Source of the DNA: Ignavibacterium sp. | GTDB lineage: Bacteria > Bacteroidota > Ignavibacteria > Ignavibacteriales > Ignavibacteriaceae | Length of the DNA stretch: 48,573 nucleotides | Reading direction: 5' to 3' | NCBI GenBank assembly: GCA_025056745.1 | Contig: JANWVQ010000027.1 | Coordinates: 1-48,573, forward strand | In this document: in pieces, positions 28,018 to 33,886 of the stretch | Numbering within the stretch: position 1 is the first letter of the stretch | Layout: the number at the start of each line of letters is the position of its first letter | The notes under the pieces: generated by a model | The model's database searches: none | Seen by the model: only the letters and a program-made list of their open reading frames with translations | Told to the model about the DNA's origin: nothing | Position numbers and translations under genes: made by a program

Positions 28018-29595
28018 TTATGTCTTCGCTTTAAATCTCGTACTGACTTTGAAAATAATTTTATCTCTTGCACTTAACTTAACCTTCCTACCATCGCTTG
28101 AATAGAACACGACATTTACAATAGCCTTTTTAGCGAATTTTAGTTTACTAAACTCATTATTTGAAAGTAAAATTCTTTTTGTCTGTCTTGCTGGTTCAGA
28201 GGTCAATCCTTCATTATTTACTTTAGAACTAAGAATTGAAAAGATGGTATCAGAACTGCTCCCATCTCCTCTCTCTCTTGTGAAGTAAAATAGTGTGTTG
28301 TTTGAAGCATCGATGAAACGTCCAGTTACTTTAAAGCCGATAGGTAGATAATTATCATAACTAATGTTTAATTCTGAAAAATCAATCTTATCAAAATTTT
28401 TTGTTTCTTGTTCTTTAAATTCAACTTCCATTGTATCAGTCCTGCTCGCATTATCAATTTTGAAAATTGAATAAACAATTAATTGATTTGAAAATTTTAT
28501 AGTGTCGGGAAATAATGCTTCAATTGATTTATAGTTTGGGTTTATTATAATATCCCCTTTGTATGACACCGAATCAGGAATTTGTGGAGATATAAATTCA
28601 TTTATTGAAACATCATCTAAATTAAATTCAATTTTTCCTCTACTTAGATTAATAACTGTATCTAATGTTGTTCGGTTGTTAATCTTTAGATATTTAGGGG
28701 AAATTGAAGGGTTATTAAATTTACCAATTATTTGAAAGTTCTTTAATCTCACTTCTATGTTTTGGGAAACAAATCCTGGATCAAATATAAATTTTGCACC
28801 ATAGATATTGATTTTAGGTAAAATGTCTCTCAAATCGTTGTCAACATCTAATTTATTTGTTTTTGGTTTAATATCTGTTTCATAAGGTTTGAATCTACCT
28901 TTAACATATTTGAATCCAAGATTTTGTAATTTCATATTTACAGATATTGAATCTCCTGAGTATCCGGGAGTTAATTTAGCTATTCCATATATATAAATTC
29001 CATTCCCTGGTAATCCAGTTATTGGATTTACTGAAAGTTTTGAGAATTCATAACCAGCTAGATCAATACTCTTCGTAGAAGTTGATCTTGGATTTATTCT
29101 CATATCAAACTTTAATGTGTCTCTTCTGTTTTGATTCAGTTTACTGAAGTTTGTAACTGTGAAATTTATATCTGCAGGTTTATCCAAGTGGTTAGTAACC
29201 TTAAATTCAACTATTCCTTTGTAAAGATTCATTTGCTCGACATAAACTGAATCATCTACTATATAAGATTCAAAATTGACTGTATCAACTTGGTTTGCTC
29301 TTATTGTAAAATCTTCATCGAAAGAAATATTATCTGAGAAAAACTTTTCGAGTGTTTGAGATTTAACTTCTGTTGAATCTAATTTGAGTAGTAATTCATT
29401 TGTAGTTGAATCTATGAAAATTCCTTTTGAGCCTTTAATTCTGTCTTTAACTATTTCTGCTCTATTTATTATTGGTATTGAATATTCGACATCCCAACTT
29501 GGAAAGATTGGTGATTTGATTTCATCGAAACAAGAGTTTAAAGTTGTTGTCAATAAAATTAAGATAAGAGTAACAATAGATTTTTTGTTCTTCAT
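28018..29595 (-). CDS. Large lipoprotein of unknown function, paralogue of the upstream gene
   Basis: The 525-residue product has a lipoprotein signal peptide (TLILILLTTTLNSC, lipidated Cys at ~22). The rest is beta-strand-rich with repeated short motifs such as YVKGRFKPYETDI, VRLKNFQIIGKF and PDSVSYKGDIIINPNYKS. The upstream protein has matching KGKFKPF, VKLKNFSIKGIF and PDSIKITSEMIINPTYES in the same order, so the two are paralogues. I know no named family. The ATG overlaps the upstream stop (TGATG), so the products are coupled. Likely an outer-membrane-anchored lipoprotein acting with the barrel protein encoded first in this operon. No enzyme motif is seen. Confidence 0.85.
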   Translation of the reverse strand: MKNKKSIVTLILILLTTTLNSCFDEIKSPIFPSWDVEYSIPIINRAEIVKDRIKGSKGIFIDSTTNELLLKLDSTEVKSQTLEKFFSDNISFDEDFTIRANQVDTVNFESYIVDDSVYVEQMNLYKGIVEFKVTNHLDKPADINFTVTNFSKLNQNRRDTLKFDMRINPRSTSTKSIDLAGYEFSKLSVNPITGLPGNGIYIYGIAKLTPGYSGDSISVNMKLQNLGFKYVKGRFKPYETDIKPKTNKLDVDNDLRDILPKINIYGAKFIFDPGFVSQNIEVRLKNFQIIGKFNNPSISPKYLKINNRTTLDTVINLSRGKIEFNLDDVSINEFISPQIPDSVSYKGDIIINPNYKSIEALFPDTIKFSNQLIVYSIFKIDNASRTDTMEVEFKEQETKNFDKIDFSELNISYDNYLPIGFKVTGRFIDASNNTLFYFTRERGDGSSSDTIFSILSSKVNNEGLTSEPARQTKRILLSNNEFSKLKFAKKAIVNVVFYSSDGRKVKLSARDKIIFKVSTRFKAKT

Positions 29596-31166
29596 CAGAA
29601 ATCATCTCCTGTAAGTGAAATAACAGCCTGACCGGTAATCCGGATTTTAACATTGTCCTTTGCGTGAATTTCTGCTAATCTTCTTTCGGTTGTTGAAAGC
29701 GAAAATTTTTGAATTAAATAATATGCTCTACTAAGTTTCTCTAGTTCAGAGCTATTAAGTGGAATTCTAATAGTTTGAAATCTTGGAGCAATTACATTTC
29801 CAGATAAATCAGTGATGGCTCCATTTAATAGTAGAGTTGAATCATTTTGTCTTATTAAGTCCTTTGTCAAATAAAATAGTGGTCTATATAGTGAATCAAC
29901 CAACAAACCCGTAAGCAAACTCTCAAAAGCAATTTTATTTTCTGTGTAAATTGAAAATGAAGCATTCTTAGCTTTTTTTATTTTCTCTCTTGAATCTGTG
30001 CTAATTTTTACCTCAAGTGTATCAGTCCATTCTGCATCTGTAACTGTAAATCTTGACCAAGCATTTATAATCGAAGAGAAATGAATTGTATCATTGGAAT
30101 AAATTTCCCCAGATTCATAAGTTGGGTTTATAATCATTTCAGAAGTAATCTTAATAGAGTCAGGCACTTTAGAAAGGAAAAAATTGATATTAGAATTAGT
30201 ATTATCAAATTTTAATGTAGTTGAACCATTTTTAGGTAAAACAGTATCAATACTAATTCTGTTTCCGAACATTAGATTAATTGGAGTTCGACCATCTTTG
30301 AAAATACCTTTAATAGAAAAGTTTTTTAGTTTAACAGGAAATTTTACTGATGTTGAACCTTTTATTAGAACGAGCACGGAATCAAATGTAACATTTTGTA
30401 TAAATTCCGAAATGTCTCGACTTAAAGCGTTTTCAAGAATTTGATTTTTCACACCTAAATTGAACGGCTTAAATTTTCCTTTCATTCTGCTGAGCTTTAA
30501 ATCTTCAACCTTGGATAGAACGCCAACGCTATCGCCAAATGTTCCGTTTTGAATAGCTATTATTAATCTAATCCAAAACCCGGGAGAAGGATAACCAGGT
30601 TGACTTGGTGATATTCTATATGTGTAATTAGATAAATCAGTTTGATAAACTAAATTTTGATTAGGAAGGAGAGCTCCACCTGCTTTCAGAGTGTCAATAC
30701 CACTTCCTGTTTGTCTTACAAATGATGGAAAAATAATTCTGAAAAATGCATTTTTATTTGTGTAATTTCGAAATCTAAAGACCATTAACCCAGATGAAAT
30801 TTCTGCTTCTTGAATTGCAACAGAATCTCTGCTTACTATTAAGTCACCAACTATGGTATCTCCGACTATTACTTGAAAAGTTGTATCAAGACTCATTTCA
30901 AAAAAGTCCGCAGTAAAAGTTTCAATAACAGTATCTTTTTTTATTTCTTCTGTAGTAAACCTTAGCAAATATCTTCCACTATCAACTTGTATCTGGCTTT
31001 GACGCTTTATTATATCTTCCATCAAGTAATTTTTTTCAGAAAGACTGAATTGAATTTTATTGTCGAAAGTGGGATCAAAAATATTTTTTGACTTCTCCGA
31101 GCAAGCAAGAAAAATTATCGAGAGAATTATAATAAATAAAAACTTTGAGCGTATTAAAATTTCCAT
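29595..31166 (-). CDS. Large lipoprotein of unknown function, paralogue of the downstream gene
   Basis: The 523-residue product starts with a lipoprotein signal (FLFIIILSIIFLAC, lipidated Cys at ~22). Most of the protein is predicted beta-strands. Conserved blocks shared in order with the next protein are MKGKFKPFNLGV, FPVKLKNFSIKGIF, VPDSIKITSEMIINPTYES and SNDTIHFSSIINAWSRF. A C-terminal part resembling an Ig-like sandwich ends ISLTGDDF. The start lies 13 bases inside the barrel gene and the stop overlaps the next ATG. Function is unknown; conservation of two copies next to a barrel gene suggests a fixed complex. Confidence 0.85.
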   Translation of the reverse strand: MEILIRSKFLFIIILSIIFLACSEKSKNIFDPTFDNKIQFSLSEKNYLMEDIIKRQSQIQVDSGRYLLRFTTEEIKKDTVIETFTADFFEMSLDTTFQVIVGDTIVGDLIVSRDSVAIQEAEISSGLMVFRFRNYTNKNAFFRIIFPSFVRQTGSGIDTLKAGGALLPNQNLVYQTDLSNYTYRISPSQPGYPSPGFWIRLIIAIQNGTFGDSVGVLSKVEDLKLSRMKGKFKPFNLGVKNQILENALSRDISEFIQNVTFDSVLVLIKGSTSVKFPVKLKNFSIKGIFKDGRTPINLMFGNRISIDTVLPKNGSTTLKFDNTNSNINFFLSKVPDSIKITSEMIINPTYESGEIYSNDTIHFSSIINAWSRFTVTDAEWTDTLEVKISTDSREKIKKAKNASFSIYTENKIAFESLLTGLLVDSLYRPLFYLTKDLIRQNDSTLLLNGAITDLSGNVIAPRFQTIRIPLNSSELEKLSRAYYLIQKFSLSTTERRLAEIHAKDNVKIRITGQAVISLTGDDF

Positions 31167-32593
31167 TTGCTATCCATCGCAAAATTTAACTTTCTTGTTG
31201 AATTAGGGCTTAATAAAGCTGCAAAATTTGAAGAAGCGAAGTTGAATTCCAAAGGACCTGCATTAAATCCTATTCCAAAGCTCCAAGTAAATCCAACTAT
31301 TCCACCAAAAGAAAAACCTGTTCGAATAAATGGCAATTTCAAATAATCCCATTCAAATCCCAAAGAGAAACGGGGTATTGTTGAATTTCCAATTTCATTA
31401 TTAAATCCTTGATTATAGTCAAAAGCAACTAACAGACTTCCCGGAAATGATTTTATAAATGGTGCTTTATCAACCTGAAAAGAAATTCCTAAACGCAATG
31501 TTGTTGGTAAACCTGAAGAAAAGGGAGTTGTAATATCACTTGTGGCTTTATTGAATTTATTTTTCAAAGAATCGAGCTCTTCTTTTGTTGAATATCCTTC
31601 AAAAGTAAATTCACTGTTGTTTTTTATTGTTGCTTGATTGTTGTCCCACTTGATTGAGCCTATATCTGTAATTGCAATTGCAGCTTTAAGATAATCATTT
31701 ATATCGCCAGAAAATCCAATATCAAATCCAAAACCACTTCCCGCTGCTGTTGGTGAGAAAGAAAATCTAAAATCTTTTATTGATACAATGCTGTCTTTAC
31801 CATAATTTTTTGCAAAATCAGGTGATAATGCGTGTAGAATTGTATAATCAAATTTTCCTTTGATAATATTTTCGGCTTCGTTTTGAAAATATGAATCATT
31901 TTTCTCTGTACTTAGATAATAATAGCCACTTATAAATTTAAATGTAATTCCTGCCAATAAATTCTTTAAATAATTACTTTCTATATCAGTTATTTTTCTT
32001 GCATAAGAAAAAGAAACTTCTCTCCAAATTGATACTTTTGCAATAAGGTCGCTAAATGCATAAACTTGATTTGGGTATAATCCACTGAAAACTAAATCAG
32101 TAAAACTTTTTGAAGGTTTAAATCTCATCCCTAATCTATCAACTATTCCAAATCCAAAAGCACCAATTTTTTCACTATGATAGTATGACATTGACAAATG
32201 ATTTATGTTTAGATTGAATATTAAATCTGTCTCACCAAGCATTTCTTTAAGTTCTTCCTTTTCATCATTATTTAAGTATCTTCCGACTAATTTTCCGCTT
32301 CCATCATCAACACCACCAAAGAAATAGTTATACTTATCAATGCTTATTGGAGTTCTGAAGTAAAAGTTGAGTTCTGGAACAGGCAAGTAGCTTTTAATAT
32401 TGAATCTTTTCTTACCTTGCAGAGCTAAGTTAGCAGGATTAACTCCAATCGCATCTACTCCTCTACTGTTAGACACATAAGTAAATGCCATTGAAATACT
32501 TTTAGCATCTGAAAATCCAAAAGACCCTGATGATTGAGAATATGTTGGTGAAAGAAGTGAGAAGATGAGTATGATTAAAATTAGAAATATCAT
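31154..32593 (-). CDS. Outer-membrane beta-barrel protein, PorV/FadL or DUF5723-like
   Basis: The 479-residue product has a signal peptide (to about residue 20, ending SPTYSQ). An N-terminal segment GVDAIGVNPANLAL is typical of PorV/FadL-like and DUF5723-like barrels of the FCB group. Many amphipathic strands follow and the protein ends KWKF, with the terminal Phe expected by the BAM machinery. It is the first gene of a three-gene operon with two paralogous lipoproteins (13-base overlap). FadL relatives pass hydrophobic molecules and PorV serves type IX secretion, but neither role can be assigned here. A histidine kinase gene ends 84 bases upstream; I found no clear promoter in that spacer. 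Confidence 0.82.
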   Translation of the reverse strand: MIFLILIILIFSLLSPTYSQSSGSFGFSDAKSISMAFTYVSNSRGVDAIGVNPANLALQGKKRFNIKSYLPVPELNFYFRTPISIDKYNYFFGGVDDGSGKLVGRYLNNDEKEELKEMLGETDLIFNLNINHLSMSYYHSEKIGAFGFGIVDRLGMRFKPSKSFTDLVFSGLYPNQVYAFSDLIAKVSIWREVSFSYARKITDIESNYLKNLLAGITFKFISGYYYLSTEKNDSYFQNEAENIIKGKFDYTILHALSPDFAKNYGKDSIVSIKDFRFSFSPTAAGSGFGFDIGFSGDINDYLKAAIAITDIGSIKWDNNQATIKNNSEFTFEGYSTKEELDSLKNKFNKATSDITTPFSSGLPTTLRLGISFQVDKAPFIKSFPGSLLVAFDYNQGFNNEIGNSTIPRFSLGFEWDYLKLPFIRTGFSFGGIVGFTWSFGIGFNAGPLEFNFASSNFAALLSPNSTRKLNFAMDSKWKF

Positions 32594-32677: not shown

Positions 32678-33886
32678 CTAAAGTTTTCTTAATAAAATTT
32701 TGAAAGTTGTTCCCTGTCCAATCACTGATGATTTCAAAAAGATTTTACCATTATGATAGTTTTCAATAATCCTTTTTGAAAGACTAAGTCCTAATCCCCA
32801 ACCTCTTTTCTTTGTGCTAAATCCAGGTCTAAAGATTTCTTTTCTATTCTTTAAGTCTATTCCTTTACCATTATCAGTTACTTCTATTTCTGCATATTTT
32901 TTCGATTGTGAAATGCTAATGGTTATAATTCCATTTTTATTTTCAATTGCATCTAAAGAATTTTTTATGAGATTTTCAATTACCCAATCGAATAATTCAG
33001 CATTGATTTTCACGGAAAGGTTCTTATCACCTTCGACATTTAGTTGAACTGATTTGCCTGTTTGTGGTAATCTTCGGTTGAAATAGTCAATCACTTTAAC
33101 AATTTCCTGATAAATATTTTCTTCTTTCAACTCCGGTTTGGAACCAATTTTTGAAAAACGATTAGTAATCTTATTAAGCCTTTCAACGTCATTTTGAATT
33201 TCCTCTGTTATATCTAAAACTTTATTAGGGTCATTATAGTTAATTTTTAACATTTCAAGCCATCCCATCAAACTTGAAATCGGAGTTCCAAATTGATGGG
33301 CAGTTTCTTTAGCCATTCCAACCCATATATTTTTTTGTTCAGATTTTTTAACGTAGCTAAATCCTAAATATGCTAATAGAATAAAAGCTGCAGCAACACC
33401 TATTTGAAAGTAAGGATAATATTTAATTTGATTTATGAGTTGCGAATCGCCATAATGAATTCTTGTTAGAATAATTGTGTCCTGATAGACTACATTTATT
33501 GGAGTATGAGACTCATCAAATTCTTTTATGAGTTCTCTTAAGAACCTTTCTATTTGTTTTTCAGATAATGTAGAATCGATTTCAATATTTCTAATCGAGC
33601 TTTTATCAGCAAGGTTTGGATTGTCCTGACTATCGGTAAGAATCATTGGAAAATCTATTGGTTGAATTATATTCTCAAATAGAAATGTTATATCAGCATC
33701 TGGATTATTATTGTTTGCAATGTATTCAATACCTTTGGCATATAATTCAACTATTTCTTTTTCCTTTTTCTGAAGTTTTTTAACAAGCTGATTAGTGTAA
33801 TAAAGAGTTCCAAATGCTATTAATAATGCAATTATCAATAAAAGAAATTTGAAATTAATTGAAGTTGGGGAGTAAGAGAATTTCAT
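32678..33886 (-). CDS. Sensor histidine kinase, membrane-bound, orphan
   Basis: The 402-residue protein has an N-terminal membrane helix (~12-32) and a periplasmic sensor region (~35-150). A second helix (~153-172) is followed by a dimerisation/phosphoacceptor region with the His in AKETAHQFGTPISSLMGWLE. The ATPase core has N box IENLIKNSLDAIENKNG, G1 box VTDNGKGIDLKN and G2 box GWGLGLSLSKRIIE. The phosphoacceptor box has HQ where HE is usual. No response regulator gene is adjacent, so it is an orphan kinase here. It lies upstream of the barrel/lipoprotein operon on the same strand and could be co-transcribed. The 149 bases upstream hold no motif I can support. Confidence 0.92.
   Translation of the reverse strand: MKFSYSPTSINFKFLLLIIALLIAFGTLYYTNQLVKKLQKKEKEIVELYAKGIEYIANNNNPDADITFLFENIIQPIDFPMILTDSQDNPNLADKSSIRNIEIDSTLSEKQIERFLRELIKEFDESHTPINVVYQDTIILTRIHYGDSQLINQIKYYPYFQIGVAAAFILLAYLGFSYVKKSEQKNIWVGMAKETAHQFGTPISSLMGWLEMLKINYNDPNKVLDITEEIQNDVERLNKITNRFSKIGSKPELKEENIYQEIVKVIDYFNRRLPQTGKSVQLNVEGDKNLSVKINAELFDWVIENLIKNSLDAIENKNGIITISISQSKKYAEIEVTDNGKGIDLKNRKEIFRPGFSTKKRGWGLGLSLSKRIIENYHNGKIFLKSSVIGQGTTFKILLRKL

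Follow-up and report, generated by a model that had tools for sequence, protein, structure and literature searches.

What do three overlapping genes for an outer-membrane barrel and two large lipoproteins encode together, and are they conserved as one unit? The question arises from contig JANWVQ010000027.1 of Ignavibacterium sp. (positions 1 to 48,573, forward strand), the whole stretch of 48,573 nucleotides that is called the window below. An earlier note, made from the letters of this DNA, had taken the three genes for a fixed surface or outer-membrane complex belonging to no described system. Here we describe the genes and their products, their conservation and history in related genomes, and the role that the module may play.

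Three overlapping genes and their products

The three open reading frames lie where the earlier note had placed them, and their frames overlap as it had described (Table 1), with transcription on the minus strand running from the barrel through lipoprotein A to lipoprotein B. The 13-nt overlap between the barrel and A has the same length in the three nearest relatives (loci L081, L082 and L083), and this conservation implies that translation of the two genes is probably coupled. Comparison with the L081 orthologues gave dN/dS ratios (NG86) of 0.08 for lipoprotein A, 0.10 for B and 0.11 for the barrel, with dS near saturation; this substitution pattern indicates that purifying selection acts on all three genes.

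Table 1. Features of the three-gene module in window coordinates.
Feature	Position	Strand	Remarks
DUF5723 outer-membrane barrel, FadL superfamily, 479 aa	31154..32593	-	PF18990 match; first gene of the module
Lipoprotein A, 523 aa	29595..31166	-	Paralogue of B; ortholog of the first downstream copy in L081-L084
Lipoprotein B, 525 aa	28018..29595	-	Ortholog of the second downstream copy in L081-L084; tree clade 100/100
Barrel/A overlap, 13 nt	31154..31166	-	ATG of A within the C-terminal W-K-F codons of the barrel
A/B stop/start overlap TGATG	29593..29597	-	Read from the sequence

Scans of the module for promoters and terminators returned nothing above the chance level. Some 85 bases separate the barrel from an upstream gene of the same strand (32678-33886, minus strand), which encodes a membrane histidine kinase; no response regulator adjoins this gene. 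We rejected this gene as a part of the module, as it is not adjacent to the barrel in L081-L084.

The product of the first gene matches Pfam DUF5723 (PF18990) over residues 94-452 with E 2e-39 and 136.8 bits, where the curated cut-off is 26.8 bits. Foldseek searches with its AlphaFold model (pLDDT 84.6, pTM 0.81) retrieved TbuX, TodX and FadL, followed by PorV and BamG of Bacteroides thetaiotaomicron, all with probability 1.0 (for TbuX, E 1.1e-8 and TM 0.55 by target). The PorV/FadL-like barrel recognised from the letters is therefore borne out by the DUF5723 match and by the predicted FadL-type fold, the model placing the protein in the FadL superfamily fold (FadL/PorV/BamG). A Pfam search gave no match to Toluene_X (PF03349) up to E 1, the match to NCBIfam PorV_fam (NF033709; 24.7 bits, E 1.5e-5) lies below the cut-off of 90 bits, and the sole match of the barrel profile among PDB sequences is a weak one to PorV (E 0.098). 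Among the papers searched, none was found on DUF5723 or BDI_1231.

Among the 51 members of the barrel family, N52 and P53 are invariant and A54 is nearly so. This NPA motif lies 33 residues past the mature N-terminal Q in the window barrel, and the distance in the DUF5723 family is 28-34 residues, with 32-33 residues in 44 of the 51 members. The FadL counterpart is P34 (by the names of the PDB mutants), and the DUF5723 hatch is of FadL length.

Lipoproteins A and B each carry a signal peptide and the invariant cysteine of their family (Cys22 in A). Their paralogy, first read from short blocks occurring in the same order, proved not to be a matter of chance blocks, with a single BLASTP alignment (E 2e-44, 26% identity) that extends over about 500 residues; their equal length, offered as a further argument, carries little weight, since lipoprotein length varies among relatives, from about 515 to 735 aa. 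The profile searches that had been suggested as a check returned no convincing Pfam or NCBIfam family match for the lipoproteins and no known binding domain. In the AlphaFold model (pLDDT 83, pTM 0.61), lipoprotein A is mostly beta and has several domains, and its best match among solved structures, 4h3w of Parabacteroides distasonis (E 5e-15, TM 0.23/0.36), is by this model local only, 4h3w being itself a protein of unknown function. Most of the lower Foldseek matches (viral capsids, TM < 0.2) were rejected as distant and spurious, and the match between the lipoprotein profile and designed 'Pizza' propellers in the PDB (E 1.7e-5, residues 410-452), in which no single stretch passes by itself, was attributed to chance on a short repeat-like motif.

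The best-conserved 20-residue segments of the lipoprotein all fall within residues 22-54, starting from the lipid cysteine (mean 0.58 vs 0.42 overall), and this conserved N-terminal part reads C-x-D-x-P ... P-x-W-D-V-x-L-N-x-P. The acidic mark of surface export can be recognised in the family sequences in an imperfect form: at least one D/E occurs in the six residues after the cysteine in 44 of 50 lipoproteins, and two occur in 24 of 50. Lipoprotein B has two acidic residues shortly past the lipid cysteine (C-F-D-E-I-K-S) and thus bears the mark; A has one.

A lipoprotein of about 185 aa precedes the DUF5723 barrel in family f29 (L168-L187), which probably represents Flavobacteriaceae. The hhalign alignment of this short protein (E 7.8e-6, probability 84%) falls on the C-terminal domain of the window's lipoprotein family, and since the protein is cut to such a length, an N-terminal tail and the C-terminal domain seem to be the minimum.

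Conservation of the pair and origin of the trio

Using the barrel profile, we fetched 65 named loci, in 60 of which a lipoprotein gene lies directly upstream of the barrel. The five exceptions comprise L129 and L143, which lie at a contig end, L081, which has the gene order of the window, and L128 and L130, which have no lipoprotein. The same association is seen in the whole genomes of 59 relatives, where both genes occur in 37, the barrel only in 2, the lipoprotein only in 0 and neither in 20 (Fisher p 8e-14; the table was read from two hit lists, a strong barrel being one clearly above the weak PorV-like background). Across the phylum, the lipoprotein is present in 110 of 345 genomes and lies directly upstream of a DUF5723 barrel at no fewer than 81 of 113 places. 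The rest of these places are the window's A, directly downstream of its barrel, the window's B, beyond A, 23 undecided cases, and seven places with the barrel elsewhere in the genome, among the barrels listed (the window's B left out).

These counts show that the conserved unit is the pair, lipoprotein then barrel, and not the trio. Conservation of all three genes together, which the earlier note had expected, does not extend beyond the window genome and four relatives (L081-L084). The barrel and one lipoprotein constitute an undescribed pair that is widespread across Bacteroidota. At L128 (4155-5570) and L130 (1581-2996), the DUF5723 barrel is kept at the ancestral site and the lipoprotein is gone from the whole genome, which suggests that the barrel can act alone.

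Only five related genomes, the window's among them, were found to have two or more lipoproteins at the module. At L082, L083 and L084 the order is U, barrel, A, B, where U is a further lipoprotein, and each whole genome gives three lipoprotein hits; the window genome and that of L081 have A and B only. The lipoprotein tree unites U, A and B in a single clade (100/99), in which U is placed beside A (98/95) and B outside; A of the window falls with the A copies of L081-L084, and B with the B copies (100/100 each). The five barrels likewise form a single clade in the barrel tree (100/100). The simplest history consistent with these sequences has the lipoprotein duplicated in tandem twice around the barrel, with U lost afterwards in the genus of the window.

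The module is flanked in most relatives by a TPR protein gene with a DUF3467 gene on one side and by LptF/LptG, which are convergent to it, on the other. Searches of the genome's contigs, by which all own-genome tests were made, located the TPR/DUF3467 and LptF/LptG neighbours on two other contigs of the window genome, both without the module, and we infer from this that the module moved in the window's genus. A functional link with LptF/LptG was considered and is not claimed, these genes being on another contig in the window genome.

The same-strand upstream gene codes for a homologous secreted protein, about 310 aa long where complete, in 22 of the 41 loci that have such a gene; it lies directly upstream of the lipoprotein at L088, L082, L083, L084 and 18 other loci, and Pfam identified the T9SS sorting domain Por_Secre_tail in the one member checked. 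When the window genome was searched for this protein, the sorting domain alone matched, in other proteins. The window genome (contigs of G000) gives 89 matches to the T9SS C-terminal sorting domain, and the many proteins that carry it point to a large set of T9SS cargo.

Relation to BamG-BamH and alternative roles

FadL-type barrels with a surface lipoprotein were first recognised in 2025, when the FadL-family barrel BamG and the surface lipoprotein BamH were described as essential core components of the BAM complex of Bacteroidota (PMC12578637, PMC12611786). In the solved pair, BamH inserts its lipidated N-terminus like a wedge into the barrel of BamG. The reported hallmark of BamG is some 10 more N-terminal residues than FadL has, an extension described for BamG2 too (PMC12578637, PMC12611786). 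BamG2-BamH2 of Bacteroides thetaiotaomicron (Bt1785-Bt1786) is a putative operon that lies outside the purified BAM complex and is dispensable (PMC12578637). The claim that the module resembles no described system holds, then, for the lipoproteins, which match no described family, but not for the layout, which has analogues in BamH/BamG and BamH2/BamG2.

Because the design of the module strikingly fits BamG-BamH (PDB 9hiv, 9n2d), we tested BAM membership. Both consist of a FadL-superfamily barrel and a large surface lipoprotein with a conserved N-terminal segment, and the gene order is the same, a BamH-like lipoprotein directly preceding BamG in nearly all Ignavibacteria loci examined. That the module is a part of BAM, namely a second BamG-BamH pair of the kind of BamG2-BamH2, is also consistent with BamG being among the fold matches and with a whole-length match between the DUF5723 and BamG profiles (E 1e-8), which indicates a remote relationship between the two barrel families from end to end; BamG2-BamH2, too, is a putative operon outside the known complex (PMC12578637). 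However, the window genome has a clear BamG of its own at C79:25452-26690 (L202:1498-2739, minus strand; hits to solved BamG chains with E 1.8e-28, for PDB 9n2d_B, and E 5.1e-26), with a BamH-like lipoprotein of 399 aa directly upstream (L200:7692-8891, minus strand). BamG occurs in 58 of the 59 relatives, whereas a strong DUF5723 barrel occurs in 39, short of near-universal presence. The distance from the mature Q to NPA is 42 residues in 26 of 26 BamG orthologues, as against mostly 32-33 in the DUF5723 family, so the window barrel has no BamG-type extension. With a separate BamG in the genome and no such extension, the identity of the barrel with BamG was rejected; that of the lipoproteins with BamH by sequence was rejected as well, since the profile-profile alignment with the BamH-like family, whose own identity is deduced from its position and length and from a single DUF4270 hit, covers the signal peptide only (28 columns). 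BamG2-BamH2, compared here by description, is like the module in that a FadL-type barrel and a surface lipoprotein are encoded by a putative operon of two genes, and differs by the BamG-type extension reported for BamG2. A role within BAM is thus quite improbable, and the module is likely a relative in design of BamG-BamH and not a member of that system. Ignavibacteria keep bamG paired with the gene for a BamH-like lipoprotein, and the locus tags given in the papers set bamG and bamH apart in Flavobacterium johnsoniae and Bacteroides thetaiotaomicron.

PorV and PorP/SprF, the shuttle barrels of T9SS, resemble the module in having a FadL-like fold and a dedicated surface partner, and PorV is both a close fold neighbour of the window barrel and its one sequence match in the PDB. 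The barrel might then collect T9SS cargo as these proteins do, with the lipoproteins retaining it, and the secreted neighbour with its Por_Secre_tail would fit such a shuttle or anchor, since PorP/SprF genes also follow their own cargo gene (PMC12618676). But the partner of PorV and PorP/SprF is T9SS cargo and that of the window barrel is a lipoprotein, the window barrel scores below the PorV family cut-off, and the window genome has lost the neighbour. Presence of the module does not track SprA, which occurs in 57 of 59 relatives with or without the module, and cargo of the Por_Secre_tail type would be expected to use PorV, on which type A CTDs all rely (PMC12618676). We consider this role distinctly improbable. 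Uptake of hydrophobic compounds, by a FadL/TodX-type channel for which the surface lipoproteins would capture the substrate as SusD does for SusC, draws on the toluene channels TbuX and TodX as the best solved-fold matches, on the likeness of the barrel to FadL, TodX and TbuX in the length of the N-terminal hatch, on the dispensability of a module that 20 of 59 relatives do without, as they might an uptake route, and on the retention of the barrel alone at L128 and L130. Unlike the Toluene_X proteins, however, the window barrel lacks a PF03349 match, has dedicated lipoproteins and has no catabolic neighbours; the lipoproteins have no recognisable binding domain, and the same genome encodes a separate canonical FadL at C12 (E 3e-75). 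Uptake therefore appears unlikely.

Predicted complex and its proposed role

We hold it to be probable that the barrel and the lipoprotein form a complex. Their tight pairing and co-occurrence, the coupled frames and the conserved lipidated N-terminus of the lipoprotein all support this prediction, and the fixed outer-membrane complex of the earlier note is in this respect likely. A DUF5723 barrel of a predicted 14 strands would sit in the outer membrane with a FadL-type hatch at its N-terminus as a plug, and its outer face would carry one or more lipoproteins dedicated to it. These would probably be exported to the cell surface and would probably dock via their lipidated, highly conserved N-terminal segment, as is suggested by the wedging of BamH into BamG. 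Their beta-rich body of several domains would project from the barrel, with the C-terminal domain as the phylum-wide core. In the lineage of the window, a tandem-duplicated lipoprotein would have given U-barrel-A-B, from which the genus lost U and took barrel-A-B to a new site; after this duplication, loss and relocation, two divergent lipoproteins may share one barrel or alternate on it.

Instead of passing solutes, such a complex would anchor surface proteins or act as their scaffold, outside BAM. We give about an even chance to the overall reading, a dedicated surface-lipoprotein/FadL-barrel complex acting as a scaffold in the manner of BamG-BamH or PorV. The scaffold role in itself is preferred over transport by analogy, and we propose it tentatively, with slightly less than even confidence. 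The secreted protein of about 310 aa encoded upstream fits surface assembly. On the other side stand the imperfect acidic mark, with its one acidic residue in lipoprotein A, the two loci that keep the barrel without a lipoprotein, the seven places with a listed barrel elsewhere, and the local character of the match to 4h3w, whose function is unknown. The FadL-length hatch, the toluene-channel fold matches and the two barrel-only genomes leave transport some probability.

A broader suggestion, which is speculative and rather less likely than the scaffold role taken alone, is that the DUF5723 barrel and its upstream lipoprotein may make up, across the Bacteroidota, another surface machine that runs in parallel with BamG-BamH and serves to handle or retain surface proteins; the two or three divergent lipoproteins in the lineage of the window would then share one barrel and diversify its clients.

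The module of the window is a lineage-specific expansion of an undescribed and widespread lipoprotein/FadL-barrel pair. This pair is separate from BamG-BamH and has the design and gene order of the latter, and the distance from the mature start to NPA tells DUF5723 barrels from BamG. Specific gene pairs are now open to direct functional testing, and the natural series of one, three or two lipoproteins per barrel, or none, may show how such complexes gain and lose parts.
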